A DNA stretch of 47,837 nt, from NCBI RefSeq assembly GCF_900107435.1, contig NZ_FNPZ01000011.1:1-47837 (forward strand). The letters run 5' to 3'. The notes under the pieces were generated by a model. It had not been told where the DNA came from. It saw nothing but the letters and a program-made list of their open reading frames with translations, and searched no databases. This document shows, in pieces, positions 4,823 to 26,927 of the stretch. The stretch's first letter is position 1; the number at the start of each line of letters is the position of its first letter. Source of the DNA: Herbiconiux ginsengi (GTDB taxonomy: Bacteria > Actinomycetota > Actinomycetes > Actinomycetales > Microbacteriaceae). A program made the translations under genes and the position numbers.

Positions 4823-4847
4823 TACGCGATCGGGGAGAGGGGGCGCG

Positions 4848-4860: not shown

Positions 4861-7339
<2,479 letters not shown>

Positions 7340-7393
7340 CGCACCGCGCACCCTCATCGTGGTGCGCAGCCCTGGATGCGGGTGGGTCGTGCT

Positions 7394-7483: not shown

Positions 7484-7536
7484 GGAGCCTCGAGATGATC
7501 AGTGCGAGGCGCCCCTCTGCCGATTCTCCATACCGG

Positions 7537-9478: not shown

Positions 9479-9925
9479 GCCGTCAGATCGACCGGCGATC
9501 ACCCGGACCGGTCGCGCCGGGCAGGAGGGCGATGACCATCCGAGGGCGACAGACGACGCCGGGTCGGCTGTTGTCCCACTGTCCCAGACGGATGACGTGA
9601 ACACCCGGCTTCCGGCAGGTGCGCCGGCATTCGTGTAGACACCGAATCCGATCGTCGTCTGGCGTGGGATGCCGGTACCGATCTTTGAGCGCATCGTGAT
9701 GCGCCCCGAGCTCATGGATCGACGAGTTCGAGCGTCATGCCGTCGGGATCGCTGGAGGTGGGGATACCACGCCGGGCAGACCATCCAGCCATGCCCCGGA
9801 CTGGGAGGAGAGCCTCCCGGAATCGGCACGCACCGTCGGCGTCACCTTTCCGTGCTGGGCGACTCCTTAAGTGAAGACACCGAATGCGGGGACTACCGGT
9901 GTCCGAACACGAGAGGGTGACGCAC
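9479..9925. other. 447-bp gap between response regulator and kinase-like gene
   Basis: No intact gene is visible. The minus strand carries a short glyoxalase-like tail (see 9712-9786), and the reading frames around it are broken, so this stretch looks like decayed coding DNA that was inserted or left between two genes that are usually adjacent. The last 20 bases hold the GAGAGGG ribosome site of the kinase-like gene. Confidence 0.4.
9712..9786 (-). pseudogene. Possible C-terminal remnant of a VOC/glyoxalase-family gene
   Basis: Read on the minus strand, the last residues before a TAG/TGA-type stop at 9712 are GIPTSSDPDGMTLELVDP. DPDGxxLELV is the classic end of vicinal-oxygen-chelate proteins, where the Glu is a metal ligand. 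No matching upstream part is found, so at most this is the tail of a deleted gene. It is short and could be coincidence. Confidence 0.3.
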
Positions 9926-11368: not shown

Positions 11369-11558
11369 GCAATTCCCTGGGAAGACCTGTCCCCGGTCGT
11401 GACCGCCGATCCGGTGCCCGTTCTCGGGCAGGTCGTTGCCGGCCCGTCTCGGGGCGAGGTGGTGTTTCCGCTGGGGGCTGCAGTGCGGGGTGGTCGGGCC
11501 ATACGCCACGACGGGCGCCGAGCTCAAGGCTGCGGACCGGAGCTGCGCGGCAACAACT

Positions 11559-11570
11559 TAGACTCGGTGG
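11559..11570 (+). promoter_or_regulatory. Leaderless -10 element for the MFS transporter
   Basis: TAGACT (11559-11564) lies 6 nt before the ATG at 11571, and the gap CGGTGG is not a usable ribosome site at that distance. The layout matches leaderless transcription. Confidence 0.5.
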
Positions 11571-12791
11571 ATGCCCGAGCACCGCCCACTGCCGATCTGG
11601 GCGGGACGCGGGGCCGCGCTGCTGGGTATCGTGCTCGTCGCATTCACCCTTCGCCAAGCGGTTGCCGCGATATCGCCGATCCTCAGCGACATCCGGGCGG
11701 ACATCCCGATATCGAACATCGGCGTCGGATTGCTCGGCACATTGCCGCCCATCCTCTTTGCGGTATCGGGGTTCATCGCGCCGCAGGTCGCTCGCCGCAT
11801 CGGTCTCGACGGCGGCATCCTGCTCGCGCTGGTGCTCATGACCGCGGGTCACATCACCCGCGCGATCGCCCCGGGCTTCGCGATACTGCTCGTCGGGAGC
11901 ATCGTCGCCTTCGCCGGTACGGGCATCGGCAACGTGCTCCTCCCGTCCATCGTCCGGCGGTACTTCCCCGACCGCGTCGCTCTGCTCACCGCGGTGTATG
12001 CCTGCATCGTGGGAGTGAGCACGGCCGTGCCTGCTGCGCTCGCCGCCCCGATCGCCGAGCAGGGCGGCTGGCGGTTCTCGCTCGGTGTGTGGTCGGCGAC
12101 ATCAGTGGTCGCGTTGGTTCCGTGGATCATCATCCTGGCGCGGGAGCGCCGCCTACGACTCCCGGATGCGGTTGCCGTCGAGTCCCGGCCTGCAGCCCTC
12201 GTCAAGCGACTGTGGCGCTCCCGCGTGGCCCTGTCGATCACCGTCTTGTTCTCGACGAGCACGATCTGCACCTACGCGGCGTTCGCGTGGCTGCCGGAGA
12301 TCCTCGGCGACGTCGCCGGTTCGACGCCGACCGAGGCTGGGGTGTTGCTCGCGGTGACCGGCATCGTCAGTGTGCCCGGAGCGCTCATCGCGCCCCTTCT
12401 CGTCGAACGGATGCGCACTGTCGGCTGGCTGATCGCCGCCGGTGTCGCGAGCTTCGCTTTCGGGTACCTCGGGCTGCTGTTCGCGCCCGCGACATCGACG
12501 CTCCTCTGGGTGCTGCTCATCGGGTCGGGGTCGATCCTGTTCCCGGTCAGCCTCGTGCTCATCAACGTCCGCACCCGAACCCAGGGCGGCACCGTCGCGC
12601 TGAGTGGCTTCGCCCAGGGGATCGCCTACGCGCTCGGCGCGCTCGGTCCGCTGATCGTCGGGCTGTTGCACGACGTCACTGGCGGGTGGACCCTGCCATT
12701 GCTCTTTCTGCTCGCGGTCGCCCTCGTGGCGACCATCCCGGCGATCACGCTTGCGCGACCCGTGTTCGTGGAGGACGAACTCGACCGTTAG
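11571..12791 (+). CDS. MFS transporter, CynX/NimT (cyanate permease-like) family
   Basis: A 406-residue membrane protein with about 12 hydrophobic segments in two six-helix halves. The first helix (GIVLVAFTLRQAVAAISPIL) and the following IRADIPISNIGVGLLGTLPPI match CynX/NimT transporters, which carry cyanate, 2-nitroimidazole or other small anions and drugs. The loop between helices 2 and 3 (FIAPQVARRIGLDGG) is the usual MFS signature position. It stands alone and starts without a leader; substrate unknown. The genes before (a two-component pair) and after (F420-type reductase) may or may not be functionally linked. Confidence 0.88.
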   Translation: MPEHRPLPIWAGRGAALLGIVLVAFTLRQAVAAISPILSDIRADIPISNIGVGLLGTLPPILFAVSGFIAPQVARRIGLDGGILLALVLMTAGHITRAIAPGFAILLVGSIVAFAGTGIGNVLLPSIVRRYFPDRVALLTAVYACIVGVSTAVPAALAAPIAEQGGWRFSLGVWSATSVVALVPWIIILARERRLRLPDAVAVESRPAALVKRLWRSRVALSITVLFSTSTICTYAAFAWLPEILGDVAGSTPTEAGVLLAVTGIVSVPGALIAPLLVERMRTVGWLIAAGVASFAFGYLGLLFAPATSTLLWVLLIGSGSILFPVSLVLINVRTRTQGGTVALSGFAQGIAYALGALGPLIVGLLHDVTGGWTLPLLFLLAVALVATIPAITLARPVFVEDELDR

Positions 12792-13144
12792 TCACGCGGC
12801 GCCACGACGCACGGCATCCACCCATGCGTTCCTCTCGGCAGCTGCCCCCATGGGTGTGAGCGGCGCGGCCATCGCATTCTCGCAAAATGTCGACACCTGA
12901 CACCGACGGCTGCAGGACGGATGGAACGTGGTCGAGGACCGCAATGAAGACGGGTTCTCCAGGGATGAGGCGAGCGCTTTCCACGGACCAACCATTTCGT
13001 GGGCGTTTTCCCCTCCCTCGGAATAGATGAGGCACCCCTCCGGTTTCATCCACCAACCGGAGGGGTGCCTCACCTTGTATTCGAGTCGACTCCACAGCGA
13101 CCGCCCCACGGCTGACCGACAGAACCACGACGAAGGAGAACAGC
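12792..13144. other. 353-bp intergenic region without a gene
   Basis: No supported coding region. It contains the strong hairpin at 13028-13072 and, at its right end, the AAGGAG ribosome site (13133 region) of the next gene. The long distance from the MFS stop to the hairpin suggests the hairpin belongs to the leader of the reductase gene rather than to MFS termination. Confidence 0.6.
13028..13072. repeat. Perfect 18-bp inverted repeat in the leader of the reductase-SDR operon
   Basis: Arms TGAGGCACCCCTCCGGTT (13028-13045) and 13055-13072 are perfect reverse complements around a 9-nt loop. The predicted hairpin is very stable and ends 73 nt before the ATG at 13145. It is not followed by a T-tract. 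It may be an attenuator-like structure, a stabilising 5' hairpin, or a terminator for transcripts from upstream. Confidence 0.8.
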
Positions 13145-13768
13145 ATGACGAGCATCAGTATCATCGGCTCGGGGAACATGGCCGGCGCCATCGGCGCCCT
13201 GGCTCTGAAAGGCGGCGACACGGTCGAGATTTCGGCCCGGGATGCCGCGAAGGCGGCGTCACTGGTCCGCACGCTCGGCGGCGGCGCCACGGTCGGAACG
13301 TGGGGCGCCGCGCCCGCCGGCGACATCGTGGTCCTGGCCGTCCTGTTCGAGAGCGCCGTGGATGTCGTCCGCGAATACGGAGAGGCGCTGGCAGGCAAGA
13401 TCGTCGTCGACATCACGAACCCGTTCAGCCCCACCGCCACGGGGCTGGCCGTCCCGCACGACACATCCGTCGCGCAACTGATCGCCGCGGCCGCCCCGGC
13501 CGACACTCAGGTGGTGAAGGCGTTCAACACCCTCTTCCGTGACGTGCTCGCCTCGGGTGGTCCGCGGGACGTGTTCATGGCCGGCGACAGCGCCGACGCC
13601 AAGGCGAGCCTGGCGGCGTTCATCACGCTCATCGGGCATCGGCCTCGTGACGTCGGCGACCTCGGCATGGCGCACTGGCTGGAGGGAGCGAGCCTGTTGG
13701 AGATGGGGCTCGCACGAAGCGGCCTGGGGTTCGGCCTCTCGCTCGGCGTCGATCTCGGAGGAAAGTGA
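13145..13768 (+). CDS. NADPH-dependent F420 reductase family protein (NAD(P)-binding)
   Basis: A 207-residue protein that begins with the Rossmann motif ISIIGSGNMAGAIGALALKGG and carries SARDAAKAASL, where F420:NADP reductases bind NADP phosphate. Later come VDITNPF and VKAFNTLFRDVL, both diagnostic of the family. It may move hydride between NADP and a deazaflavin, or act as a plain oxidoreductase; many actinobacterial homologues have no proven F420 use. AAGGAG lies upstream of the ATG. Its stop overlaps the spacing region of the next gene (SDR) by coupling, so both form one operon. An F420-dependent Ddn-type protein elsewhere in the window (33928-34422) suggests the organism uses F420. Confidence 0.88.
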   Translation: MTSISIIGSGNMAGAIGALALKGGDTVEISARDAAKAASLVRTLGGGATVGTWGAAPAGDIVVLAVLFESAVDVVREYGEALAGKIVVDITNPFSPTATGLAVPHDTSVAQLIAAAAPADTQVVKAFNTLFRDVLASGGPRDVFMAGDSADAKASLAAFITLIGHRPRDVGDLGMAHWLEGASLLEMGLARSGLGFGLSLGVDLGGK

Positions 13769-13770
13769 TC

Positions 13771-14505
13771 ATGGGAAAGCTGGACGGCAAGGTCGCGGTG
13801 ATCACCGGCGCCACGAGCGGGATGGCCCTGGCCGGCGCGAGGCTGTTCGTGCGTGAAGGGGCTCATGTCTTCATCACCGGCCGGCGGAAGGATGCCCTGG
13901 ACGAAGCCGTGAAGTCCATCGGCCGGAATGTGACGGGGGTGCGGGCCGATGCCGCGAACCTCGCCGACCTGGATCGTCTGTTCGAGACGGTTCAGCAGGA
14001 GAAGGGTTCGATCGACGTGCTGTGGGCGAGCGCCGGAGGCGGCCAGTCGGCCAGGCTCGGCGAGATCACCGAGGAGCAGTTCGATGCCGCCTTCTCGCTC
14101 AACGCCCGCGGCACGCTCTTCACGGTGCAGAAAGCGTTGCCGCTCATGAACGACGGTGGTTCGATCATCATGACCGGCTCGAACGCGTCTCTGAGGGGCT
14201 ATCCCGATTGGAGCGTGTACGCCGCGAGCAAGGCGGTGCTCCCCGCTTTCGCGCGGGTATGGGTGTCCGAGTTGAGAGACCGGAAGATCCGGGCGAACGT
14301 TCTGACCCCCGGCTCGGTCGCCACCGCGATGATGGGTGACGTGCTGAGCCCGGAGATGAAGGAGATGTTCGCATCCGTCATCCCTCGGCGCGAACTGGGC
14401 CGACCCGAAGAGATCGCATCGGTCGCGTTGTTCCTCGCGTCGGACGATTCCAGCTACGTCAACGGCATGGAACTGGTGGCCGACGGCGGCACCACTGTGA
14501 TCTGA
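13771..14505 (+). CDS. Short-chain dehydrogenase/reductase (classical SDR)
   Basis: A 244-residue classical SDR. The cofactor loop reads VITGATSGMALAGARLF, with Met in place of the usual Ile-Gly. The NNAG motif is altered to ASAGGG. The catalytic Ser (SIIMTGSNAS) and Tyr-Lys (YAASK) are intact, and the C-terminal FLASDDSSYVNG is normal. The ATG at 13771 was chosen (GGAGGA 8 nt upstream) over an overlapping GTG at 13765. It follows the F420-type reductase with only 2 nt between them, so the two are co-translated. Substrate unknown; such pairs often detoxify carbonyl compounds. Confidence 0.88.
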   Translation: MGKLDGKVAVITGATSGMALAGARLFVREGAHVFITGRRKDALDEAVKSIGRNVTGVRADAANLADLDRLFETVQQEKGSIDVLWASAGGGQSARLGEITEEQFDAAFSLNARGTLFTVQKALPLMNDGGSIIMTGSNASLRGYPDWSVYAASKAVLPAFARVWVSELRDRKIRANVLTPGSVATAMMGDVLSPEMKEMFASVIPRRELGRPEEIASVALFLASDDSSYVNGMELVADGGTTVI

Positions 14506-14584: not shown

Positions 14585-15649
14585 TCAGGCGGGTGGGGAC
14601 TCGCGGGACGACGCGCGGTGGGCGGCTCTTCGGCGGAGGAGGCCGGGGACGAGTTCGCGGAGCAGGACGACCCCGATCAGCACCACCGCCTGCGCGATGA
14701 GCTGCAGCGCATCCTGCCAGCCCACCGAGCGCAGCAGCTGCCCCAGCTGGGTGAGGAAGAGCGCCGCGATACCGGTCGACACCACGCTCGCGAGCCCACC
14801 GGTGAGCGCGGTGCCGCCGAGCACCACGGCCGCCACCGAGGGCAGCAGGTACGAGTCGCCGAGGAACAGCGCCGGGGTCTTCGTGTAGCCCGCGAGCAGC
14901 ACGCCGCCCGCTCCGTAGCAGAGGCCCGCGAACGCGTAGGCGAACATCTGGTAGGCATTGACGCGGATGCCCAGAGCCGCCGCGGCCCGCTCGCTCACGC
15001 CGACCGCGGTGAGCCGCTTGCCGATGATCGAGCGTTGCGTCACGAGACCGGCGATCACCACGATCACCACGGCGATCAGCAGCGTGTTCGGGATGCCCAG
15101 GGTGCGGTCGAGCGCGAAGCCGTTCAGTGCCGCGGGTGCGCCCGAGGGTGTGCCGTCGGCGACGAAGAACACGGTGCCGAGCAGCACGGCGTTCATGCCG
15201 AGGGTGACGACGAGCGGCATCACCCGGAAGTACGTCACCAGGATGCCGTTCACGAGCCCCACGATGCCGGGGCCCACGATGCCCGCGATCACGGCGGCCC
15301 AGAGCGGCCAGCCGTAGTTCTGCGGAAGACCGGTGGAGAGCACAGCGGCGAGCGCGATCATCCCGGGCACCGAGAGGTCGAGGCCGCGCTGCTGCACCAC
15401 CAGGGTCTGCCCGGCGGCCACGATGGCCAGCACGGAGGCGAACGGCAGCATGCTGAGCAGCGGCGCCGCTCCGAGACTGCCGGGGGCGATGATCGGCGAG
15501 AGCGCGAAGAGCAGCGCGGTGGCGACCACGATGCCCACCCAGCTGCCGGAGAGCATCCGGCGCCAGGTCGACTCGACGGCGTTGGGTGCCGGTGCGCTCC
15601 CGCCGGTCGGCGCGTCGGAGGGGCTTCGGGTGGTGGTGGGCGTGGTCAT
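14585..15649 (-). CDS. Sugar-type ABC transporter permease (RbsC family)
   Basis: A 354-residue BPD_transp_2 permease with about 8-10 membrane helices. The N-terminus is Thr/Ser/Pro-rich and cytosolic (MTTPTTTRSPSDAPTGG). The family signature LVVQQRGLDLSVPGMIALAAV is present, as is the TAVGVSERAAAALGI loop that contacts the ATPase, and the C-terminus is Arg-rich. The ATG overlaps the TGA of the upstream fused ATPase-permease by 4 nt (ATGA). With the permease half of that protein it would form a two-subunit channel, as in autoinducer-2 or rhamnose importers, rather than the homodimer of RbsC. Substrate probably the same compound as the upstream binding protein (19567-20721). Confidence 0.9.
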   Translation of the reverse strand: MTTPTTTRSPSDAPTGGSAPAPNAVESTWRRMLSGSWVGIVVATALLFALSPIIAPGSLGAAPLLSMLPFASVLAIVAAGQTLVVQQRGLDLSVPGMIALAAVLSTGLPQNYGWPLWAAVIAGIVGPGIVGLVNGILVTYFRVMPLVVTLGMNAVLLGTVFFVADGTPSGAPAALNGFALDRTLGIPNTLLIAVVIVVIAGLVTQRSIIGKRLTAVGVSERAAAALGIRVNAYQMFAYAFAGLCYGAGGVLLAGYTKTPALFLGDSYLLPSVAAVVLGGTALTGGLASVVSTGIAALFLTQLGQLLRSVGWQDALQLIAQAVVLIGVVLLRELVPGLLRRRAAHRASSRESPPA

Positions 15650-18285
15650 GACGCGCTCCCTTCGGAGGAGATGGGCGAGGCGATCGGCGTGCGGGGTTCG
15701 CGTGGGATGCCCGCCACCGCCCGCTTGCGCCGTCGGGTGCGCCGCAGCTGCGCGTAGAGCACGGCCGCGGCCAGGGTGATGAGGCCGGGCAGCCAGTACG
15801 ACCAAGCCTGCGAGAGACCGAGGAACGGCGACACGTTCAGCACCTGCTGCACCAGGAAGGCGGCGGCGAGGATGCCGATGAACGACCCCCGTCCACCGAA
15901 GATCGACGCACCGGCCAGCACCACCACGGTGACCGACGACAGCGTGTACGACAGCGAGGGCCGTCCGTCGCCGATGCCGATCTGCGCCATCATGATGACC
16001 GCCGCGGGCAGCACCAGGAACGAGCAGAGCACGTAGGAGAAGAACTGCGTGCGCTTGACCTTGATGCCCAGGCGCCCGGCCGCGTCGATCCGCGAGCCGA
16101 CCCCGCGGAGCTCCACGCCCCAGCGGGTGCGGCGCAACGCGAACTCGAGCACGAGCAGCACGACGACCGCCACGATGGTGACGACCGGCACGATGCCGAT
16201 GCGGGCCTGGATCTGGTCGGCGATCGGTCCGAAGATGATGCCACCCGGGGTCGAGCGCAGAGCGAGATAGATGCCCTGTAGCGCCATGTAGGTGGCCAGG
16301 GTCACCACAACCGGATTGATAGTGAACCTCGTCACGAGGAACCCGTTGATCACCCCGGTGGCGATCGCCCCCGCCACCATCAGGGCGATCCCGACGTAGA
16401 GATTGCCGCCGTCGACGATCCAGTATGACGCGAGCACCACCAAGAACCCCATCAGGGGCCCGACGGAGAGGTCGAACCCGGAACCGAGCACCACCACCTG
16501 CTGCGCGGCGCCGACGAAGAGCAGGGGAGCGGCCATGAAGAGCAGGTTGTTGATGTTGAACGCGCCGAGATACGAGGGGTTCGTGGCCGCGACCACCACG
16601 CCGAGCAGCAGGAAGATCGCGCCCAGAACGGCGGCGGGCGACTGGTCGCCGCGCATCCACCGCCGCAGCTTCACACCGCGCGCCGACTTGTCGGCATCCG
16701 TCCGCTCGCGCACCGTGGTGGAGGTGAGGGCGGCGCGGGCGATGGCGGCCTCGGAGACCTCCTCGCCCACCAATTCCTGCACCACCGAGCCGCGCGACAT
16801 GATGAGCACGCGGTCGCACAGGCCCTCCAGCTCCACGCCGTCGGAGGAGAGGATGACCACGGCCGCGCCCGAATCGGCGGCGTCGCGGAGGATGCGATAG
16901 ATGTCGACGCGGGCGCCGGCGTCGACGCCCTGGGTGGGCTCTTCGGCGAGCAGCACCGTGGGCTTCGCCAGCAGGGTGCGTGCGAGCACGACCTTCTGCT
17001 GGTTCCCTCCTGAGAGCGAGGAGATCGGGGTGCGCGGCGACGGCGTCTTGATGGCCAGTCGTTTGATCTGCTCCACGGCCGTCTGGACGATGCGGCGTTC
17101 GCTCACCATGCCGCCGCGGGAGACCTTGGGCAGCGTCTTGGCAGCGATGTTGTCGCCCACGGAGAGCGGCAGGAAGACGCCCTCGCCGTGCCGGTCGGCC
17201 GGAACGTAGACCACACCGGCGGCGGAGGCGGCCGCGTTCGAGCCGTTCGAGATCGGCGTGCCGCCCACCGCGATCGTGCCGGTGGTGGGTTCGAGCCCGG
17301 CGAGCGCGCGGATGAGCTGGGTCTGCCCGTTGCCCTGCACACCCGCGAGCCCGACGATCTCGCCCGCCTTCACGGCGAAGGTGATGTCGTGGAACTCGTC
17401 GCTGTGCAGGTCGGTGACGGCGAGCCGGTCATCCGCTCCCACCGATCCGGTGGCGCTCCCCTTCTCCGGGAACACCGTCTCGAGCTTGCGCCCGATGACC
17501 CGCTCCACGATCTGCGACTCGTCGACCTCGTCGGCGTCGAAGGTGCCGCGCACCTGACCGTCGCGGAGCACCGTGATGCGGTCGGCGATCTGTTTCACCT
17601 CGGGGATGCGGTGCGAGATGTAGACCACGGCGGTGCCGCCGGCCACGAGCTCCCGCACCTTGCGGAAGAGCTTCTGCACCTCTTCGAGCGAGAGGTGCTC
17701 GGTGGGCTCGTCGAGGATGAGCACCTTCGGGTCGAGGGCGAGGGCCTTCGCGATCTCCACGATGAAGCGCTGCTCCACCGACAGGTCGATCACGCGGGTC
17801 TTCGCGTCGATGCCCATCTCCCAGCCGTCGAGCTGGCGCTGCGACCACGCCACGGCACGGCCGAGACCGCCCACCCGCTTGTAGCCGACGCCGACGGCCA
17901 TGTTCTCGGCCACGGTGAGATCCGGCAGCAGGGCCGGGTCTTGCCGCACGATGCCGAGCCCGAGTTCGCGCGCTTCGTCGGGCGACGCGCTCGTGAGCGG
18001 TGCGCCGCCGATCTGCACGGTGCCCTCGTTCGGTGCCAGGGCTCCGGATGCGACGGCCATCAGTGTCGACTTGCCCGCACCGTTCTCGCCCACCAGGGCG
18101 TGCACCTCGCCGGCGAGCACGTCGAGAGTGACGTCGGTGAGGGCGCGAACCCCCGGGAAGGTCTTGACGATGCCGTCGAGCTTCAGCACGGTGGGGCCGA
18201 AGTTCCGCGCGGCATTCGCGTCGGCGGTGGTCGTGGCGGCATCGCCGCTCACGGTGGCGACGTCGTAGAGGTCGGAATTCGTCAT
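15646..18285 (-). CDS. Fused ABC transporter: two ATPase domains plus permease (RbsA-RbsC fusion)
   Basis: An 879-residue polypeptide. ATPase domain 1 (~30-260) has Walker A GENGAGKST, Q-loop VRQDPALLPDLT, Walker B LILDEPTEHLS and an unusual signature, LSVEQRFIVEIAKAL, in place of LSVGQ. ATPase domain 2 (~290-520) has the degenerate Walker A VQGNGQTQLI typical of RbsA, signature LSGGNQQKVVLARTLL and Walker B EEPTQGVD. An RbsC-type permease (~555-850, LGSGFDLSVGPLMGFLVVLA) follows. RbsA and RbsC are normally separate proteins. AAGGAG lies 8 nt before the ATG. The gene starts 563 nt after the SDR of the same-strand operon, across a tandem-repeat leader, and is coupled to a second permease. Confidence 0.92.
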   Translation of the reverse strand: MTNSDLYDVATVSGDAATTTADANAARNFGPTVLKLDGIVKTFPGVRALTDVTLDVLAGEVHALVGENGAGKSTLMAVASGALAPNEGTVQIGGAPLTSASPDEARELGLGIVRQDPALLPDLTVAENMAVGVGYKRVGGLGRAVAWSQRQLDGWEMGIDAKTRVIDLSVEQRFIVEIAKALALDPKVLILDEPTEHLSLEEVQKLFRKVRELVAGGTAVVYISHRIPEVKQIADRITVLRDGQVRGTFDADEVDESQIVERVIGRKLETVFPEKGSATGSVGADDRLAVTDLHSDEFHDITFAVKAGEIVGLAGVQGNGQTQLIRALAGLEPTTGTIAVGGTPISNGSNAAASAAGVVYVPADRHGEGVFLPLSVGDNIAAKTLPKVSRGGMVSERRIVQTAVEQIKRLAIKTPSPRTPISSLSGGNQQKVVLARTLLAKPTVLLAEEPTQGVDAGARVDIYRILRDAADSGAAVVILSSDGVELEGLCDRVLIMSRGSVVQELVGEEVSEAAIARAALTSTTVRERTDADKSARGVKLRRWMRGDQSPAAVLGAIFLLLGVVVAATNPSYLGAFNINNLLFMAAPLLFVGAAQQVVVLGSGFDLSVGPLMGFLVVLASYWIVDGGNLYVGIALMVAGAIATGVINGFLVTRFTINPVVVTLATYMALQGIYLALRSTPGGIIFGPIADQIQARIGIVPVVTIVAVVVLLVLEFALRRTRWGVELRGVGSRIDAAGRLGIKVKRTQFFSYVLCSFLVLPAAVIMMAQIGIGDGRPSLSYTLSSVTVVVLAGASIFGGRGSFIGILAAAFLVQQVLNVSPFLGLSQAWSYWLPGLITLAAAVLYAQLRRTRRRKRAVAGIPREPRTPIASPISSEGSAS

Positions 18286-18353
18286 CTCGGCATCTCCTTA
18301 TGGGTTCGGGGTTGAGCAGTGGTGGTGGTCGGAGGGAATCGGCGGTGGGCGGT

Positions 18354-18669
18354 GACACGAGGTGGAGGTGGGGTGGGACGGCGAGGCGGTGGTGGGACGT
18401 GAAGGTGGGGTGAGACATGAGGTGGAGGTGGGCCGGGGAAGCGGTGGTGGGACGGAGGGTGAGGTGAGACGTGAGGTGGAGGTGGGCCGGGGAAGCGGTG
18501 GTGGGACGGAGGGTGAGGTGAGACGTGAGGTGGGGGTGAGGCGAGGAATCGGTGGTGGGACGGAGGGTGAGGTGAGACGTGAGATGGAGGTGAGGCGAGG
18601 AATCGGTGGTGGGACGGAGGGTGAGGTGAGACGTGAGATGGAGGTGGAGCGGGGAAGCAGTGAGGGGAG
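18354..18669. repeat. 54-bp tandem repeat array in the leader of the fused ABC gene
   Basis: Four full 54-bp units begin at 18412, 18466, 18520 and 18574, with a partial unit at 18628 and a diverged one before 18412. Units differ at a few positions and fall into two subtypes (GGCCGGGGAAGC and AGGCGAGGAATC). On the transcribed (minus-strand) RNA each unit has about 33 C and 5 G. Because 54 is a multiple of 3, all frames can stay open, giving a Pro/His/Ser-rich translation, but no ribosome site or domain supports a protein. It lies between SDR 18848 and the ABC gene 18285, inside the likely operon. Confidence 0.9.
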
Positions 18670-18728
18670 AGGCGGACGGCGGAGCCGCGGCACCGCTCGG
18701 CACGAGATCCAAGGCAACAGGCCCTTAT

Positions 18729-18822
18729 CGACGACCCAGGGTGAGCGCGAGGCCGCGAAGCGACCTCACGCGAACATGTCGCGGAGCGCCGGGCAAGGAC
18801 CGGCGCGACCCGTGGACGCCGC
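18729..18822. repeat. Dispersed palindromic repeat, copy B
   Basis: Second copy of the element at 7394-7483. Shared blocks include CGACGACCCAG, GAGGCCGCGAA, CGACCTCACGCGAAC, TGTCGC and GCGCCGGGCAAGG. Here the left arm of the stem is worn (GTGAGCGCGAGG, about 9 of 12 positions still match), while the right arm CCTCACGCGAAC is identical. It lies between the SDR stop (18848) and the 54-bp repeat array. Confidence 0.8.
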
Positions 18823-18847
18823 GCGAAGCACGGCGCCCACGGCAGCA

Positions 18848-19570
18848 TCACTGCGCCAGATACCCCCCGTCGATCACGAGCTCCGACCCCGTCACGAAGC
18901 TCGCCTCGTCGGAGGCGAGGAACACCAGCCCGGCGGCGATCTCGTTCGGCTTGCCTGCCCGGCCCATCGGGGTCATCGACACCACGTACTCGTTGATCTC
19001 CGGCGCCTGCGCATCGGTGAGCGGTGTCTCGATGAACCCCGGATGTACCGAGTTCACCCGCACGTTCTCCTTGGCGTAGGTGATCGCCGCGCTCTTGGAC
19101 ATGTTGCGCACCGCGCCTTTGGTGGCGTGGTAGGCGTGGGCGCCGGAGACGGCGACCGAGCCCCAGATCGACGAGATGTTGATGATCGATCCGCCGCCCT
19201 GCGCGATCATGTGCGGGATGACCTCGCGCATGCCGAGCCAGGTGCCGGTCTGGTTCACCGCGATGACGGTGTTCCAGTCGTCGAGGGTGAGGTCGTGCAG
19301 CGTCTCGTAGGCGATGATGCCGGCGTTGTTGGCCAGCACGTCGACGTGCCCGTGGGTGCTGATGGTGTCAGCCACCACCCTTTTCCAGTCCTCCTCCTTC
19401 GCCACGTCGAGCTGCTGGTAGTGCACCCCGTCGGGGAAGGTGGTGTCGGAGGCGGCGCGCCCGGTCGCGATGACCGTGGCGCCCTCCTCCGCGAAGGCCT
19501 CGGCGATGGAGCGGCCGATGCCGCGCCCGGCGCCCGTCACGATGGCGACCTTGCCGTCGAGCCGGTTCAC
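18848..19570 (-). CDS. Short-chain dehydrogenase/reductase in the transporter operon
   Basis: A 240-residue classical SDR with cofactor loop [22 protein letters not shown], catalytic Ser in INISSIWGS, Tyr-Lys in YHATKGA and the C-terminal [20 protein letters not shown]. The GTG start overlaps the TGA of the binding-protein gene (GTGA), which shows co-translation with the uptake system. Its cofactor and fold fit a secondary alcohol dehydrogenase of the 3-alpha-hydroxysteroid, carveol or cyclohexanol dehydrogenase kind, acting directly after import. With the divergent Baeyer-Villiger enzyme this suggests alcohol to ketone as the first catabolic step. Confidence 0.9.
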
Positions 19571-20721
19571 TGGAAGAGCTTCTTCAGCGAGTCGACGCTG
19601 AGTCCGGAGGAGAGGATCGCGTCGGGCGGCAGGTCGGCCTCGCACTTGGGCTGCAGGTCGGGGTTCGTCGAGTCCTCGATGATCTCGAGGTTGTAGGTCG
19701 ACGGCTCGTCGTTCGGCAGTCCGTTGGCGGCGGCGAGGCCCTTGTGCAGAGCGGCCGCGACGACCCAGTTGCGCGAGGACTCGGTGGCGATCTGGTAGGT
19801 CGGCTGCGCATCCTTGTACTGGTACCAGAGGCACGCGAATTCGTTCGAGTCGTTGGCCGACCAGACGGGCAGCGGCTTGCCGGCGGCCTCGAAGGCGCGG
19901 ATGCCGCCCACCGAACCTCCGCCGTAGTCGGCCACGATGCCGTTGATGTCGCCGTACTTCGTGATGAGGCCCGCGACCACCTGCTGCGTCTTGCCGGGCT
20001 CCCAGTCGGTGGCGACGGGGCCGTCCTCGTTGAGGAGGGTGATTCCGGGGTTGGCCTGCACGGCCTCCATCACGCCGTCGAACACGGCCTGCGAGTACGA
20101 GTTGCCGGCGATGCCGCCCAGCATGACCAGGTTGCCCTTGCCGCCCATCTTCTCGATGGTCCACTCGGCGAGGTTCTTGCCGTAGGTGTTGATGTCCTCC
20201 GACACGAAGTCGACGTAGTCGGTGCCGGGCACGCCGCCGGGGGAGCCGACGAAGGGAACGACCTTGACGCCGGCCTCGGTGGCCTTCTTGATGGTCGGCA
20301 GCAGCGCCTCGCCGCCGTCGACGAAGGTGACGATCACGTCGACGCCCTGGGCGACCAGCGAGTTGATGTCGCTGATGGCCTTCTGGGTGTCGCCCTGCGC
20401 GTCCGTGTAGATGACCTTCTTGATGTTCGGGCACTTCGCGGCCTCTTCTTCGAAGATGGCCCGCGTGATCTTGCGCCAGGAGTTGCCGCCGAAGCCGTCG
20501 GCGAGAGCGACGGTGAGATCCTTGTCGCCGCAGAATTCGCTGATGTCCTGGATGTCGCCCTGAACGCCGACCGTGCCGACGGTGACCTCGGAGGCGGCAC
20601 CGGAGGAGTCGGTGGAGCCCGCGTCGTCGCCGGCGGAGGAGAGGGAGCCGGTGGAACAACCGGCGAGGGCGAGTATCGCCACCGCGCCGATCGCGGCGAG
20701 TGACGCTTTCTTGGTGAACAT
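19567..20721 (-). CDS. Periplasmic-type sugar-binding lipoprotein of an ABC importer
   Basis: A 384-residue solute-binding protein. It has a lipoprotein signal peptide with lipobox LALAGC, a Ser/Gly/Asp-rich linker, and a periplasmic-binding fold of the ribose/autoinducer class ([52 protein letters not shown]). It is the first gene of the minus-strand operon. The cysteines at ECG, KCP and KCEA positions may form disulfides. It would present the ligand to the fused ATPase-permease and the second permease downstream. The ligand is probably polar and sugar-like or cyclitol-like, judging by family; the neighbours suggest it ends as a cyclic ketone. Confidence 0.92.
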
Positions 20722-20940
20722 GGGAATCGTCCCGCTTTCTCTTCGTTGAGTGGACCGCTGCTGGTGTTCTCGTGGACACGCATGCCGGGCGGAGGCCTGG
20801 CGTTTCTAGAAGTCTCAGAGCATTCCCGCGGGTGTTTCGCATCACCCTGAGACAGCGGTGCGTCATTTTGCGACAAGCGGTTCGGGAGCCGATCCGCGCG
20901 GTCATCCTGGTGTCATTCCCCGACGATGAGGAGAGATTGC
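20722..20940. promoter_or_regulatory. Divergent promoter region of the two catabolic operons
   Basis: 219 bp between the binding-protein and esterase genes. It holds GTCTCAG (20812-20818) with its inverse CTGAGAC (20847-20853), the near-palindrome GGTGTTTCGCATCACC inside them, and a further TCGCA (20837) / TGCGA (20869) pair. One regulator bound here could control both operons, but no dedicated regulator gene lies beside them; the nearest activators are more than 10 kb away. GAGGAGA precedes the esterase ATG. Confidence 0.45.
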
Positions 20941-21855
20941 ATGTCCGCGAATCAGCCCACCGACCTGCTCGGCCGGATCTACGCCGAGTGGACCGTGGAG
21001 TTCGAGGCCAACCCGGAGATGTCGCTGCAGCTGCTGCGCTGGGTCTTCGAGGACTGGCAGCGCGCCACGACGGAACCTGAGGGTGTGACCTACCAGACGA
21101 CCTCGATCGGCGGTGTTCCGGGCATCCGGGTGACGCCGCTCGACGCCGACCCAGCCCAGATCCTGCTCGTGCTGCACGGCGGCGGATTCGCGCTCGGCTC
21201 CTCGTCGAGCCACCGCAAGCTGGCCGGGCACCTCGCCAGGGCCTGCGGGGCCACCGCGTTCGTGCTCGACTTCCGGCTCGCGCCCGAGCACCCGTATCCG
21301 GCGCAGATCGAGGACACCCTCGCCGTGTATCGCGCGCTCCTCGCCGACGGGTTCTCACCGGCCGATGTCACCTTCGTCGGCGACAGCGCCGGCGCGAGCA
21401 TCGCCATCGCCTCCGTGCTCCGACTGCGCGACGAGGGCGAACCGCTGCCCGGCCGGGTCGCGACCATGTCGCCCTGGCTCGACATGGAGAACTCCGGCAC
21501 CACGATCGAGACCAACGACGACACCGACTTCCTGATCGCGCGCGAAGGCCTGCAGGGCAACATCGACCGCTACCTCTCCGGGGGAGCATCGCCGACGCAT
21601 CCGCTGGTCAACCCGCTCTACGCCGACTTCACCGGCTTCCCGCCGCTGTACATCGTGGCCAGCGACGCCGAGTCGCTCTTCCACGACGCCCAGCGACTGG
21701 ATGCGCTCGCCCGCGCCGCCGGGGTCGACGTCACCTTCGCCGTCGGCGAGGGGATGCAGCACGTCTACCCGTTGCAGGCGGGCAACCTGCCCGAAGCCGA
21801 TCAGGCGATCGCCGACCTCGCCGCCTGGTACACGAACACTCGAAAGGACAACTGA
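20941..21855 (+). CDS. Alpha/beta hydrolase, hormone-sensitive-lipase (GDSAG) family esterase
   Basis: A 304-residue esterase. The oxyanion-hole motif HGGGF is at ~79-83, the nucleophile Ser is in VGDSAGAS (~149), the acid Asp is in ASDAESLF (~242) and the His is in GMQHVYPL (~274), a complete HSL-family triad. It has no signal peptide and so is cytosolic. GAGGAGA lies 8 nt before the ATG. It is the first gene of an operon with a Baeyer-Villiger monooxygenase and an SDR, 1 nt apart from the next gene. In known pathways this family includes caprolactone and monoterpene-lactone hydrolases that open the ester made by the monooxygenase. That role is inferred here. Confidence 0.9.
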   Translation: MSANQPTDLLGRIYAEWTVEFEANPEMSLQLLRWVFEDWQRATTEPEGVTYQTTSIGGVPGIRVTPLDADPAQILLVLHGGGFALGSSSSHRKLAGHLARACGATAFVLDFRLAPEHPYPAQIEDTLAVYRALLADGFSPADVTFVGDSAGASIAIASVLRLRDEGEPLPGRVATMSPWLDMENSGTTIETNDDTDFLIAREGLQGNIDRYLSGGASPTHPLVNPLYADFTGFPPLYIVASDAESLFHDAQRLDALARAAGVDVTFAVGEGMQHVYPLQAGNLPEADQAIADLAAWYTNTRKDN

Positions 21856-21856
21856 C

Positions 21857-23488
21857 ATGAGCACCTCCCCCTCTCGCGATTTCGACGCCGTGGTCATCGG
21901 CGCCGGATTCTCCGGACTCGCCCTGCTGCACCACCTGCGCGAGATCGGCCTGAAGACTCTCGTGGTCGACGGCGAAGACGGCATCGGCGGCACCTGGTGG
22001 GTGAACCGCTACCCCGGCGTGCGCACCGACAGCGAGTTCAGCTACTACTCCTTCTCGTTCTCGAAGGAGGTGCGCGAGGAGTGGACCTGGTCGCAGCGGT
22101 ACCCGTCAGGACCCGAGGTGCTCGAGTACCTCAACTTCGTGGCCGACCGGCTCGACCTGCGCAAGGACATCCGTCTCAACACCCGCGTCGACTCCGCCGT
22201 CTACGACGAAGACGCGAACCTCTGGACCGTGAACTTCGCCGACGGGTCGTCGGTCACCACGAAATACCTGATCAGCGGCATGGGTGTGCTCTCGCAGGCG
22301 ATCTACCCCGACATCCCGGGGATCGACACGTTCCAGGGCGAGAAATACCACACGGCGCACTGGCCGCGCACCGGGGTCGACCTCGCCGGCAAGAAGGTGG
22401 GACTGATCGGGCTGGGCGCCTCCGGCATCCAGATCGTTCCGGTGATCGCGCCCGAGGTCCACGAGTTCTTCGTGTTCCAGCGCACCCCGAACTTCATCGT
22501 CGAGACCACCAACGAGGGTGTCTCGACGGAAGAGATGCAGTACGTGCGGGAGAACTACGACGCGATCTACGAGAAGGCCGCGAACCATCCGTTCGGGGTG
22601 GCGATGGAACCGGCCGAGTTCTCGGCGCTCGAGGTCTCGCCCGAGAAGCGGCGCGAGATCTTCGAGTCGAAGTGGAACGAGGGCGGATTCCATTTCGCCA
22701 ACGAGTGCTTCAACGACCTCGCCACCAACCACGAGTCCTCGGAGCTGGCGGCGGAATTCATCCGCTCGAAGATCCGCGAGATCGTGAAAGACCCGGCCAC
22801 GGCCGACCTGCTCTCGCCCAAGACCTACTCGTTCAACGGCAAGCGCGTGCCCACCGGACACGGCTACTACAACACCTTCAACCTCCCGCACGTGCAGTTG
22901 ATCGACACGGCGAGCGAGCCCATCACGCAGATCACCGAGAAGGGCGTGAAGGTCGGCGACACCGAGTACGAGCTCGACGTGCTGATCTTCGCCACCGGAT
23001 TCGACGCGATGACCGGCACGCTCACCCACATCGACATCCGGGGACGCGGCGGGCGCACCCTGCGCGAGAAGTGGCAGGAGGACGGCTTGAAGTCGAACCT
23101 CGGCATCAACGCGAACGGGTTCCCGAACTTCTTCATGTCGCTCGGGCCGCAGACGCCGTACTCGAACCTGGTGGTGCCGATCCAGCTCGGCGCCCAATGG
23201 CTGCAGCGGGCGCTGAAGTGGGCCGAGGAGAACGGGATCGAGCGTTTCGAGGCCACCCCCGAGTCGGAGGAGTGGTGGGCCGCCGAGACCGAGCGCACCG
23301 GCAAGGCCACCGTCATGTACAGCGAGGGCAAGAAGGCCAAGGCGTGGTTCCTCGGTGAGAACGTGCCCGGCAAGGCCGAGGAGTTCCAGGTCTACATGGG
23401 GGGAGGCCAGGTGTACCAGGAGCACTGCCGGCGGGCCGAGGCCGAGGGCTACGCGTCGTTCCTCGCGCCGGCGCCGGTGAACGCGTGA
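21857..23488 (+). CDS. Baeyer-Villiger type flavin monooxygenase
   Basis: A 543-residue class B flavin monooxygenase. The FAD loop is VVIGAGFSGLALLHHLR (~13). The Baeyer-Villiger fingerprint FQGEKYHTAHWP (~159-170) matches FxGxxxHxxxWP. The NADPH loop is VGLIGLGASGIQIVPVIA (~182). The C-terminal ATGFDAMTGTL is the second family motif. Length and motifs are those of cyclohexanone and 4-hydroxyacetophenone-type enzymes, which insert oxygen next to a ketone using NADPH and O2. The ATG follows the esterase stop directly. Together with the flanking SDRs and esterase it implies conversion of a cyclic or other ketone to an ester or lactone. Substrate not predictable from sequence. Confidence 0.95.
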   Translation: MSTSPSRDFDAVVIGAGFSGLALLHHLREIGLKTLVVDGEDGIGGTWWVNRYPGVRTDSEFSYYSFSFSKEVREEWTWSQRYPSGPEVLEYLNFVADRLDLRKDIRLNTRVDSAVYDEDANLWTVNFADGSSVTTKYLISGMGVLSQAIYPDIPGIDTFQGEKYHTAHWPRTGVDLAGKKVGLIGLGASGIQIVPVIAPEVHEFFVFQRTPNFIVETTNEGVSTEEMQYVRENYDAIYEKAANHPFGVAMEPAEFSALEVSPEKRREIFESKWNEGGFHFANECFNDLATNHESSELAAEFIRSKIREIVKDPATADLLSPKTYSFNGKRVPTGHGYYNTFNLPHVQLIDTASEPITQITEKGVKVGDTEYELDVLIFATGFDAMTGTLTHIDIRGRGGRTLREKWQEDGLKSNLGINANGFPNFFMSLGPQTPYSNLVVPIQLGAQWLQRALKWAEENGIERFEATPESEEWWAAETERTGKATVMYSEGKKAKAWFLGENVPGKAEEFQVYMGGGQVYQEHCRRAEAEGYASFLAPAPVNA

Positions 23489-24258
23489 CGGGCCGGCTGG
23501 CGGGCAAGGTCGCGCTCATCACGGGCGCGGCCTCGGGGATGGGCCGCGCGACCGCGGAGCTGTTCGCGGCAGAGGGGGCGACCGTCGCGGTCACCGACTT
23601 CAACGCCGTGCTCGGGGCCTCCGTGGCCGACGACATCGTGGCGGCCGGCGGAGCGGCGCGGTTCTGGGAGATGGACGTGTCTCGGGAGGCGAGTGTCGCA
23701 TCCGTCGTCTCCGCCGCGGCCGCCGTCTTCGGGGGGCTCGACATCCTGATCAACTGCGCCGGCATCATCGGGGTCGACAAACCCACCCACGAGGTGAGCG
23801 AGGAGGAGTGGGATGCGCTCTTCGCGGTCGACGTGAAAGGCGTGTTCTTCGCCACCAAGCACACCGTGCCGCACCTGATCGAGCGGGGTGGCGGGTCGAT
23901 CGTGAACTTCTCGTCGATCTACGGGCTCATCGGCAACGACGAGTTCACGCCGTATCACGTGGCCAAGGGGGCGGTGACGATGCAGACGCGGCAGGATGCG
24001 GCGTCGTACGGTCGCTACAACATCCGCGTCAACTCGGTGAACCCGTCGACGGTGCTGACGCCGTTGGTCGAGGGCATCGCCGCCGAGTTCCCGGGCGGAT
24101 TGCCCGCCTACGAGGAGATGATGACGGCGAACCAGTCGATCCGGAGGCTCGGCCGGCCGATCGACGTGGCCTACGGGGTGCTCTACCTCGCCTCCGACGA
24201 GGCGAGCTGGGTGACCGGGGTCAATCTGCCGATGGATGGCGGTTACACGGCGCGGTAG
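23485..24258 (+). CDS. Short-chain dehydrogenase/reductase in the Baeyer-Villiger operon
   Basis: A 257-residue classical SDR: ITGAASGMGRATAELF, INCAGI (Cys for the second Asn of NNAG), Ser in IVNFSSIYGL, Tyr-Lys in YHVAKGA, and FYLASDEASW-like end (YLASDEASWVTG). The GTG start overlaps the monooxygenase TGA. It differs clearly from the SDR in the divergent transporter operon, so the island holds two dehydrogenases, perhaps for the ring alcohol before and a hydroxyl product after lactone opening. It is the last gene of the plus-strand operon; the next gene is convergent 33 bp away. Confidence 0.9.
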   Translation: MTGRLAGKVALITGAASGMGRATAELFAAEGATVAVTDFNAVLGASVADDIVAAGGAARFWEMDVSREASVASVVSAAAAVFGGLDILINCAGIIGVDKPTHEVSEEEWDALFAVDVKGVFFATKHTVPHLIERGGGSIVNFSSIYGLIGNDEFTPYHVAKGAVTMQTRQDAASYGRYNIRVNSVNPSTVLTPLVEGIAAEFPGGLPAYEEMMTANQSIRRLGRPIDVAYGVLYLASDEASWVTGVNLPMDGGYTAR

Positions 24259-25391: not shown

Positions 25392-26927
25392 ATGTTCCCG
25401 TTCGACTCCCTCCTCATCGCCGCGCTCGTCGCCGTGGCCGTGATCATCGTCTTGATCGTGGTGATCACGTTGCTGCGCGGCATCAAAGTCGCCAAGCCCG
25501 ATGAGGCGATCATCGTCACCTCCCGCCAGAAGGCCGTGAAAGCCGGCCAGACGCCGCTCGAGGAGACCGAGAACGCCGGGCAGCGGGTGGTGTTCGGATC
25601 GCGCGTGTTCGTGAAGCCGATCGTCGAGGCGCACTTCAAGCTGTCGCTCCGCAGCCGCCAACTGAACGTGCAGGCCACCGCGCAGACGAAGGACGCCATC
25701 ACCATCAAGGTCAACGCCGTCGCGGTGGTGAAGGTGGGCGGCTCGGAGTCGATGGTGCGCGCCGCCGCCCAGCGCTTCCTCAACCAGCAGGACCAGATCG
25801 AGACGTCGACCGAAGAGGTGCTCTCGGGTTCGGTGCGATCGATCGTGGGTCAGCTGACGGTGACCGAGATCATCACCAACCGGCAGGCGCTGCAGGGCCA
25901 GGTGCTCGATGCGGTGCGCGAGTCGCTCGACGTGCAGGGTCTGCAGATCGACACGCTCCAGATCAAGGAGATCGACGACGACAACGGATACATCCGCGAC
26001 CTGGGCCGCGCCGAGGCCGCGCGCGTGAAGCAGGTCGCCGAAGTGGCCGAGTCGGTCGCCCGCCGCACCTCGGAGGAGGCCCGCATCGAGGCCGACCAGG
26101 CCGTCGCCGAGCAGCAGCGCAAGCTCGATCTGCGGAACGCCGAGATCCAGAAGGAGACCGACAAGGCGCGGGCCGAGGCATCTGCTTCCCGCCCGCTGGC
26201 CGAGGCGATCTCGCAGCAGGAGGTCATCGCGCAGCAGGAGATCACGGCCGGCAAGCGCGTGGGCCTGCGCAAGCAGGAGCTCGACGCAGAGATCCGCGCC
26301 GTGGCCGACGCCGAGGCGTACTCGCTGGAGAAGAAGGCGCAGGCGGATGCTGCGGCCGCTGTCGCCGCCGCCAACGCCGAGCGCGACCGCCGCAAGGCCC
26401 AGGCCGAGGCCGTGGAGGCCGAGGGTATCGCCGAGCGCAACCGCCGGCGCTCGGCCGCGGAGGCGACCGAGGCCGAGGGTATCGCCGAGAAGAACCGGCG
26501 CATCGCGGCGGCCGAGGCACTGCGGGCCGAGGGTGAGGCCGAGGCGAACTCCATCCGGGTGAAGGGCGCCGCCGAGGCGGAGGCGACCCGGGCGCAGGCC
26601 GACGCCCTCGAGGAGCGCGCCGACGACCTGCTGCGGCAGCAGGTGATCGGGCAGTTGCCGGCCATCGTGCGCGCCGCATCCGAACCCCTGGCGGCGATCT
26701 CGAACATGACCGTGATCTCCAGCGACGGCGAGGGTGCCGGCCAGGTCGGGCAGAACGTGGCGGCCCAGCTGGCGACGTCGATGCAGCTCGTGAAGGATCT
26801 CGTGGGCATCGACATCGCCGAGATCGTCACGGGCCGAGCCACGGGCGCGGCGGCCGGCGCCGCCTTCGCGCAGGCAACCCCCGCCCCCACCCGCGCCGCC
26901 CCGACCGCCTCCACCCCCGCGGAGTAG
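25392..26927 (+). CDS. SPFH/flotillin-family membrane scaffold protein
   Basis: 511 residues. An N-terminal membrane helix (LLIAALVAVAVIIVLIVVIT) is followed by an SPFH/PHB domain (~30-210, containing RSRQLNVQATAQTKDAITIKV and TVTEIITNRQALQGQVLDAV). A long Ala/Glu/Arg-rich coiled coil follows (~215-425, repeats such as AEAVEAEGIAERNRR and AEATEAEGIAEKNRR), then a flotillin-like end and a Pro/Ala/Thr tail. AGGAAGG lies 7 nt before the ATG. Flotillins form cytosol-facing assemblies on the inner membrane and are linked to membrane fluidity and secretion. No NfeD partner gene is adjacent, and none is seen in the window. Confidence 0.9.
   Translation: MFPFDSLLIAALVAVAVIIVLIVVITLLRGIKVAKPDEAIIVTSRQKAVKAGQTPLEETENAGQRVVFGSRVFVKPIVEAHFKLSLRSRQLNVQATAQTKDAITIKVNAVAVVKVGGSESMVRAAAQRFLNQQDQIETSTEEVLSGSVRSIVGQLTVTEIITNRQALQGQVLDAVRESLDVQGLQIDTLQIKEIDDDNGYIRDLGRAEAARVKQVAEVAESVARRTSEEARIEADQAVAEQQRKLDLRNAEIQKETDKARAEASASRPLAEAISQQEVIAQQEITAGKRVGLRKQELDAEIRAVADAEAYSLEKKAQADAAAAVAAANAERDRRKAQAEAVEAEGIAERNRRRSAAEATEAEGIAEKNRRIAAAEALRAEGEAEANSIRVKGAAEAEATRAQADALEERADDLLRQQVIGQLPAIVRAASEPLAAISNMTVISSDGEGAGQVGQNVAAQLATSMQLVKDLVGIDIAEIVTGRATGAAAGAAFAQATPAPTRAAPTASTPAE

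Follow-up and report, generated by a model that had tools for sequence, protein, structure and literature searches.

The stretch of DNA analysed here (the window, 47,837 nucleotides) is the start of contig C1 in the 4.85-Mb genome of Herbiconiux ginsengi. Positions 14585-24258 hold a divergent gene island that an earlier, sequence-only reading had pointed out, and the existence of this island is confirmed: seven intact, open genes, with the motifs of their families, make up two divergent operons (open reading frame (ORF), Pfam and NCBIfam checks). One operon specifies an importer and a short-chain dehydrogenase/reductase (SDR), the other an esterase, a Baeyer-Villiger monooxygenase (BVMO) and a second SDR. 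The genes are listed below (counts of loci refer to the set of 48 defined in the next section).

14585-15613, minus strand: RbsC-type permease of the importer (BPD_transp_2, E 4.7e-29)
15646-18285, minus strand: RbsA-RbsC ATPase-permease fusion (ABC_tran twice and BPD_transp_2)
18848-19570, minus strand: SDR1, proposed alcohol-to-ketone dehydrogenase (R-specific alcohol dehydrogenases head its PDB matches; 42 of 48 loci)
19567-20721, minus strand: CUT2/RbsB-type substrate-binding lipoprotein, SBP (Peripla_BP_4; AlphaFold2 model with RbsB fold)
20926-21855, plus strand: HSL-family esterase, proposed lactonase (Abhydrolase_3, E 2.2e-49; HGGG and GDSAG; 46 of 48 loci)
21857-23488, plus strand: type I BVMO (FxGxxxHxxxWP intact; PDB kinship)
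23485-24258, plus strand: SDR2 (PDB matches; found in 30 of 30 importer loci)

All of the genes named on the sequence-only reading are present and open, with the BVMO motif intact; its plural "ATPases" is apt for the two ATPase domains and not for the proteins, both domains lying in one fused chain. There is a 4-base overlap of SDR1 with SBP and another of BVMO with SDR2, a single base separates the HSL esterase gene from that of the BVMO, and the promoter region between SBP and HSL, which is common to both operons, is 204 bp long.

The BVMO carries FQGEKYHTAHWP, matching FxGxxxHxxxWP, together with the Rossmann motifs GAGFSG and GLGASG, and its best PDB kin are phenylacetone monooxygenase (PAMO; E 4.4e-140), steroid monooxygenase (2.3e-135) and cyclohexanone monooxygenase (1.5e-133). 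On these sequence features it can be assigned to the type I Baeyer-Villiger monooxygenases. It is without the two-residue bulge of PAMO, as is cyclohexanone monooxygenase. Among the PDB matches of SDR2, cyclohexanol dehydrogenase 4ure stands third and levodione reductase 1iy8 further down.

The importer has the makeup of a CUT2 system: a lipoprotein with the RbsB fold (model pLDDT 85.8, fold confirmed by a Foldseek search, which pointed to no ligand), a double ATPase and a BPD_transp_2 permease. Sugars and polyols are the usual cargo of CUT2 importers. No sugar-specific NCBIfam cut-off is reached by the SBP (best xylF, 62.6 of 389.55 bits); the RbsA-RbsC fusion also scores under the sugar-specific cut-offs (best AraG, 432.8 of 689 bits, among the best 25 of 196 families), as the RbsC permease does under its own (best PRK09512, 99.6 of 398 bits). 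Aligned to ribose-binding protein 2ioy, the SBP does not keep Asp89, Arg90, Arg141 and Asn190, which we take to be the ribose contacts.

Conservation and extent of the unit

A BVMO scan with one genome per species gave 74 loci. Counts use the 48 whose BVMO is 57% identical or more (L009-L056); the 26 with BVMO identity of at most 43% were left out, and seven of these form the outgroup of the tree. All seven genes recur in the same divergent order and orientation at 30 of the 48 loci (orientation 30/30), so the arrangement is not due to chance. Of 150 family genomes sampled, the five with an SBP match (E<=1e-90) are the very five with a BVMO match (E<=1e-180); the window's own genome is among them, and three of the five are only 1.4-1.8 Mb in size. 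The chance of such a coincidence in the other four would be ~5e-8 if the genomes were independent, which they are not, the five coming from three genera. Neither gene was found in a same-genus genome, G038, in this family search (in which the first-look candidates of some genomes were scored only in part). The proposal that the two operons form one unit is borne out by the shared order and by this co-occurrence, and a check for relatives in which the operons fail to occur together did not refute it. The unit is a real, conserved and dedicated catabolic regulon, carried by soil and freshwater actinobacteria; its gene content, order and co-occurrence can be read directly from the genomes, as can conservation of the promoter site and the partial link to PcaIJ/PcaF described below.

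The importer is missing from 14 of the 48 loci: ten of mycobacterial type (L017-L020, L022, L025, L027, L030, L049 and L053), those of Amycolatopsis taiwanensis and Streptomyces olivaceoviridis, and two of Paraburkholderia. The other four loci were not judged, three of them (L047, L050 and L054) being cut by contig ends and L032 being rearranged and cut within RbsC. The SBP query has no match at E<=1e-40 in the 14 importer-less genomes (the same query does match in the family sample). On a quick BVMO tree, some forks of which are weak, presence of the importer needs at least four changes, and the mycobacterial group, which has no importer, branches from within lineages that have one. The importer thus seems accessory, lost or gained several times around a wider core; since the core occurs without it, the substrate presumably enters some cells by other means. 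This corrects the sequence-only reading, in that the substrate does not strictly need this importer.

Clustering of the ORFs that neighbour the BVMO loci identified further members of the unit. Four of these lie at the start of the window (1-4716), ~10 kb from the importer:

1-465, minus strand: iron-containing alcohol dehydrogenase (iron ADH), N-terminal part, running off the contig start (Pfam assigns the complete gene from a relative to Fe-ADH)
469-1962, minus strand: aldehyde dehydrogenase (ALDH) resembling succinate-semialdehyde dehydrogenase (SSADH), proposed to convert an omega-semialdehyde to the dicarboxylate (GabD 3jz4 best PDB match, E 1.1e-120)
2115-2837, plus strand: regulator of GntR/FadR type, its start set inside ORF 1962-2837 (Pfam GntR and FCD; 29 of 48 loci)
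2992-4716, plus strand: AcoR/DhaR-like activator (GAF, AAA lid and Fis-type helix-turn-helix by Pfam; 40 of 48 loci)

The iron ADH is split by the contig end, with residues 7-160 in the window and residues 160-415 at an end of contig C12 (L087; tblastn). That end of C12 carries, beside the rest of the iron ADH, a 3-hydroxyacid dehydrogenase, a PcaR-type IclR regulator, a PcaF-like thiolase and both CoA-transferase subunits. Over the 48 loci the activator is found at 40, the ALDH at 37, the iron ADH at 31, the 3-hydroxyacid dehydrogenase at 30, GntR at 29, CoA-transferase subunits A and B at 10 each and the PcaF-like thiolase at 9; for many of the misses the available sequence ends first, and a distinct mycobacterial thiolase near five loci is not counted. 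A close 3-hydroxyacid dehydrogenase is present in 20 of 20 genomes searched (identities of the best pieces run from 57% to 100%, the latter for the genome from which the query came). Inspection by eye of the ORF clusters common to at least five loci showed no acyl-CoA ligase and no acyl-CoA dehydrogenase. In relatives the ADH/ALDH pair adjoins the seven-gene cluster, and the activator is less than 500 bp from the permease at 24 of the 30 importer loci. The sequence-only reading had brought in the pair at 1-1962 with the caution that it is far away; the pair does belong to the same unit, and its adjacency in relatives disposes of the caution. The unit is also wider than the two operons first claimed, taking in the activator and the 3-hydroxyacid dehydrogenase, and the lower branch of the beta-ketoadipate pathway in only part of the genomes.

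What splits the two halves of the unit in the window is ~10 kb of other genes (4774-14505): a GFO/IDH/MocA oxidoreductase, a FAD aromatic hydroxylase, an F420-type oxidoreductase, an SDR, kinase-like and response-regulator-like genes and an MFS gene (named by eye). In H. moechotypicola extra genes likewise lie between the halves (L101). Between the RbsA-RbsC fusion and SDR1 is a gap of 562 bp that holds, at 18365-18662, 5.5 tandem copies of a 54-bp unit (91% match); the array is not reported at the same gap in the near relatives L009 and L011, and for that reason looks strain-specific. L009 is recorded as Corynebacterium-like bacterium B27, a name that may be wrong: its BVMO is 95% identical to that of the window and groups with Herbiconiux. 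The tandem-repeat scan also gave short repeats within open frames at 26415-26534 (a flotillin-like gene, named by eye) and 33476-33565.

A conserved site in the shared promoter region

The promoter region common to both operons contains an operator-like site, to which the window has one weak second match:

20848-20875, plus strand: 28-bp operator-like site, TGAGACA-N4-TGNSTCA-N3-TGCGACA
2039-2066, plus strand: weak match to this site between the ALDH and GntR genes (second best in the window, 12.2 bits; one half-site exact)

At least 17 of the 21 positions of the site are kept in 36 of 45 regions, as against none in 10 x 45 shuffles; in two of the 36 (L039 and L044) the site is on the opposite strand, and in nine regions, that of Cryobacterium included, it is weaker (13-16 of 21). 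A weight matrix made from 37 non-Herbiconiux sites ranks the site at 20848 first in the window (46 bits), and in the whole 4.85-Mb genome the site is single at up to three mismatches, a reversed control pattern being absent. The element TGNGACA is enriched in the SBP-HSL (or SDR1-HSL) region, where it occurs in 38 of 45 (dinucleotide shuffles give a mean of 9.0 and a maximum of 15). Both enrichments are partly circular, because the element was read off the output of a palindrome search over the promoter regions and the consensus was drawn from these same regions. The ALDH-side region offers a fairer test: TGNGACA is present in 23 of 38 rows (shuffle mean 5.5, maximum 10), and in 20 of 32 when six rows that repeat a place are dropped. 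This region yields no full 28-bp site, its best matches keeping 10-15 of 21 positions, and the palindrome search gave no exact palindrome with 5-7-bp arms that the two promoter regions of any one genome have in common.

In the two Paraburkholderia loci no activator was found, and there is no good site (12 and 13 of 21). The mycobacterial loci keep both activator and site; GntR was not found in them. This joint distribution makes the AcoR-like activator the likely binder of the 28-bp site, from which it probably drives the unit as from a dedicated operator.

A proposed route and its alternatives

The reactions, their order and the substrate are deduced from the enzyme families. The CUT2-type importer (SBP, RbsA-RbsC fusion and RbsC) would take up a ring alcohol, SDR1 and/or SDR2 would oxidize it to the ring ketone, the BVMO would add oxygen to form a lactone, and the HSL esterase would open the lactone to a hydroxyacid. 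The freed primary alcohol would be converted to a carboxylate by the iron ADH and the SSADH-like ALDH, the lambda-crystallin-type 3-hydroxyacid dehydrogenase would yield a 3-oxo-dicarboxylic acid, and CoA-transferase and thiolase of PcaIJ/PcaF type would split the latter. (For example, 4-hydroxycyclohexanone would pass through 5-hydroxy-caprolactone, 4,6-dihydroxyhexanoate, 3-hydroxyadipate and 3-oxoadipate to succinyl-CoA and acetyl-CoA; a 3-hydroxylated ring ketone could also reach 3-oxoadipate, the substrate of PcaIJ.) Each enzyme would be used once save the second SDR, possibly there for the other stereoisomer, and a 1,4- (or 1,3-) dioxygenated cyclohexane appears to be the simplest substrate that engages every enzyme step. 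We give an even chance to the general proposal, in which the regulon serves the catabolism of a secondary ring alcohol, small and polar, that is opened via a lactone to central metabolism. The specific version, a transporter-fed route from a dioxygenated alicyclic ring (1,4-/1,3-cyclohexanediol type) to beta-ketoadipate with no aromatic intermediate, is advanced tentatively, at somewhat under an even chance.

The step order of the sequence-only reading (alcohol, ketone, lactone or ester, hydrolysis, then iron ADH/ALDH) is supported, and so, by inference, is its choice of an oxygen-bearing rather than a purely hydrophobic substrate. With PcaIJ-, PcaF- and PcaR-type genes as neighbours, a six-membered ring that is lightly oxygenated is favoured over the polyhydroxylated cyclitol or deoxysugar towards which it leaned, and such a ring appears to be the most likely class of substrate.

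The entire Chn-type gene set (SDR, BVMO, lactonase-type hydrolase, ADH and ALDH) is present in the window in two parts, which are adjacent in relatives. The iron ADH is closest to methanol dehydrogenases, with 1,3-propanediol dehydrogenases also matched, and the 3-hydroxyacid dehydrogenase, whose closest PDB relative is lambda-crystallin, exceeds the PRK06129 cut-off of 347 (406.1 and 412 bits). In human SSADH, Arg213 and Arg334 bind the substrate carboxylate and Ser498 is the third residue (an excerpt of PMC11681614). The ALDH, aligned to E. coli GabD, has both carboxylate-binding arginines, and they are kept in 29 of 29 ORFs with both motifs readable, among 54 ALDH ORFs that include fragments and repeats of one place. 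The enzyme is called SSADH-like, and not SSADH, because in 34 of 34 readable ORFs Ala stands at the position equivalent to Ser498 and because its scores fall under the SSADH cut-offs (e.g., 481.4 vs 646.35 bits). Its residues would fit a semialdehyde with a far carboxylate (of the kind to which a hydrolysed lactone would lead) rather than succinate semialdehyde itself.

Because CoA-transferase and thiolase might belong to an aromatic pathway and lie near by coincidence, the beta-ketoadipate link was examined in 20 genomes (19 distinct, G120 and G002, the latter from H. moechotypicola, being one genome). The CoA-transferases of the window's own genome pass the pcaI and pcaJ cut-offs (369.2 vs 128.5 and 292 vs 243.55 bits), models of 3-oxoadipyl-CoA thiolase rank first for the island thiolase, and the neighbouring IclR passes the PcaR/PcaU cut-off of 284.75 in three of three tested (334.1, 314.6 and 309.3 bits; four were found). 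A PcaR-like operator lies 5' of the CoA-transferase in one of four loci examined and is given little weight; the available text of PMC9582017 and PMC8222616 does not name the PcaR inducer, and nothing is drawn here from PcaR on the inducer. Four of the 20 genomes have no intradiol dioxygenase match (G057, G009, G177 and G182; three are drafts or a metagenome-assembled genome (MAG)), and in all four a PcaI-type CoA-transferase is in or beside the cluster. This compares with a PcaI-type gene on the island's stretch in 5 of the 15 other distinct genomes (G120/G002, G001, G003, G004 and G010), a difference with a chance of ~0.03 by counting, kinship uncorrected. In G182 (Agromyces) and in L032/G177 the CoA-transferase stands in a single run with ALDH, iron ADH and 3-hydroxyacid dehydrogenase, and in G009 (Salinibacterium) it lies with its thiolase ~1.6 kb from SDR2. 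G057, a member of the family with one contig of 1.76 Mb, has a single PcaI-family match, and this is within a block that runs thiolase, CoA-transferase B and A, MFS gene, 3-hydroxyacid dehydrogenase, iron ADH, ALDH, activator, then RbsC, RbsA-RbsC fusion, SDR1 and SBP, then HSL, BVMO and SDR2 (L114, 1-18626).

The keeping of the whole block in one piece in so small a genome is a notable observation in its own right. Beside it (L115, 1010-12631) lie genes that by eye resemble those of sugar-acid degradation: a dehydratase, an amidohydrolase, FMN-dependent hydroxyacid dehydrogenases and an ALDH.

A number of observations weigh against the route to beta-ketoadipate. The importer is dispensed with at the 14 loci noted above, individual roles of the two SDRs do not separate on present evidence, and the ALDH has Ala in place of Ser498. 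In L032 the BVMO follows the thiolase, with HSL and SDR2 not beside it. An island-side CoA-transferase is found in only 10 of 48 loci and in Agromyces, G057 and the window's genome; the best PcaI-type gene lies away from the island in 9 of 20 genomes, the PcaI-type match in G178 (a MAG) is weaker (238 bits), and the island thiolase is under the PcaF cut-off (462.2 vs 597 bits). The window's own genome has a second PcaIJ/PcaF-type set (contig C6, 32361-34956) and intradiol dioxygenase matches on C2, C3 and C12, so that in this organism the island-side Pca set could serve aromatics. (On C6, at 133468-167782, are also four of the eight FMO-family matches of this genome, possibly another BVMO region.)

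Several of these observations can be read in other ways. In an ordinary Chn/Cpn-type route, cyclohexanol or cyclopentanol would go to an unsubstituted dicarboxylate (adipate or glutarate), with importer and 3-hydroxyacid dehydrogenase accessory or otherwise employed. SDR, BVMO, HSL esterase, ADH and ALDH are the Chn steps, and the likeness of SDR2 to 4ure, the lack of a PAMO bulge and the 14 loci without importer would all suit such a route; it is nevertheless rather unlikely, in that it leaves unexplained the close 3-hydroxyacid dehydrogenase of 20 of 20 genomes, the PcaIJ/PcaF-type genes within the block in some genomes, and the failure to see acyl-CoA ligase or dehydrogenase by eye in the ORF clusters of at least five loci. 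A polyhydroxylated ring (cyclitol, deoxy-inositol or glycoside aglycone), with the lambda-crystallin-type enzyme acting on a polyhydroxy acid, is suggested by the usual sugar and polyol cargo of CUT2 importers, by the SBP matches and by lambda-crystallin relatives that oxidize L-gulonate. The PcaR-, PcaIJ- and PcaF-type neighbours, the loss of the ribose contacts from the SBP and the 14 genomes that manage without an importer make this unlikely.

That the substrate is a linear hydroxyketone, which the BVMO would turn into an acetate ester for cleavage by the esterase as in methyl-ketone degradation, is quite improbable. HSL esterases and type I BVMOs do serve linear ketones too, and the iron ADH, methanol dehydrogenase-like, also matches 1,3-propanediol dehydrogenases; on the other hand, both SSADH carboxylate arginines are retained by the ALDH, which suits a carboxylated semialdehyde from an opened ring, and PcaIJ/PcaF-type genes are linked in some genomes. 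Importer and catabolic genes could also be separate modules that merely adjoin, as the importer-less core of mycobacteria, Amycolatopsis, one Streptomyces and Paraburkholderia might suggest, but the 4-base overlap of SDR1 and SBP, the divergent order kept in 30 of 30, the finding of SBP and of BVMO in one identical set of 5 genomes out of 150 and the single conserved site between the two arms make this very improbable. A steroid side-chain reading (steroid monooxygenase with esterase and SDR) was set aside, as it does not accommodate the iron ADH, the SSADH-like ALDH or PcaIJ/PcaF.

Comparison with known systems

Compact and conserved, the regulon is equipped with a binding protein and an operator-like site of its own. 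If the proposed route to beta-ketoadipate is correct, it constitutes a non-aromatic entrance to one of the best-known catabolic pathways, spread over Actinomycetota and importer-less in mycobacteria and Paraburkholderia; it would also provide BVMOs matched with dehydrogenases and a lactonase for production of dicarboxylic acids, and its retention in a 1.76-Mb genome would point to an alicyclic compound that is common in soil and water yet has gone unnoticed. In work on SAR202, recalcitrant organic matter of the ocean has been proposed to undergo ring opening by flavin monooxygenases (excerpts of PMC5395668 and PMC6946804). Among the open-licence matches listed, no paper joins a BVMO to a ribose/sugar-type ABC importer and none deals with bacterial degradation of cyclohexanediol to 3-oxoadipate.

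The importer shares with other CUT2 systems (RbsABC, XylFGH) its SBP fold, double ATPase and permease domain set. In contrast to CUT2 sugar importers, its ATPase is fused to one permease, the sugar-family matches listed are far under their cut-offs, and the ribose contacts are lost. Degradation of monocyclic monoterpenoids of carveol or menthol type in Rhodococcus also combines SDR, BVMO and lactone hydrolase; we know of no importer or 3-hydroxyacid dehydrogenase in that pathway (no search was made). The lower branch of the beta-ketoadipate pathway is matched by CoA-transferases over the pcaI/pcaJ cut-offs, a PcaF-like thiolase and an IclR over the PcaR/PcaU cut-off, whereas the upper pathway to which it is linked would be non-aromatic, this linkage being seen also in the four genomes without an intradiol dioxygenase match, and the thiolase stays under the PcaF cut-off.

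The closest comparison is with ChnABCDE of Acinetobacter and others, in which an SDR, a type I BVMO, an alpha/beta-hydrolase lactonase and an ADH with an ALDH lead to a dicarboxylate. The present unit has the same succession of SDR, BVMO and hydrolase, then ADH and ALDH, and differs in its ABC importer (30 of 48 loci), second SDR, iron-type ADH, 3-hydroxyacid dehydrogenase and AcoR-like activator, and, in some genomes, in its PcaIJ/PcaF-type genes. It can be thought of as a Chn-like route, of which we found no published description, that would be set apart by distinct uptake, a 3-hydroxyacid step and a partly linked exit through beta-ketoadipate.

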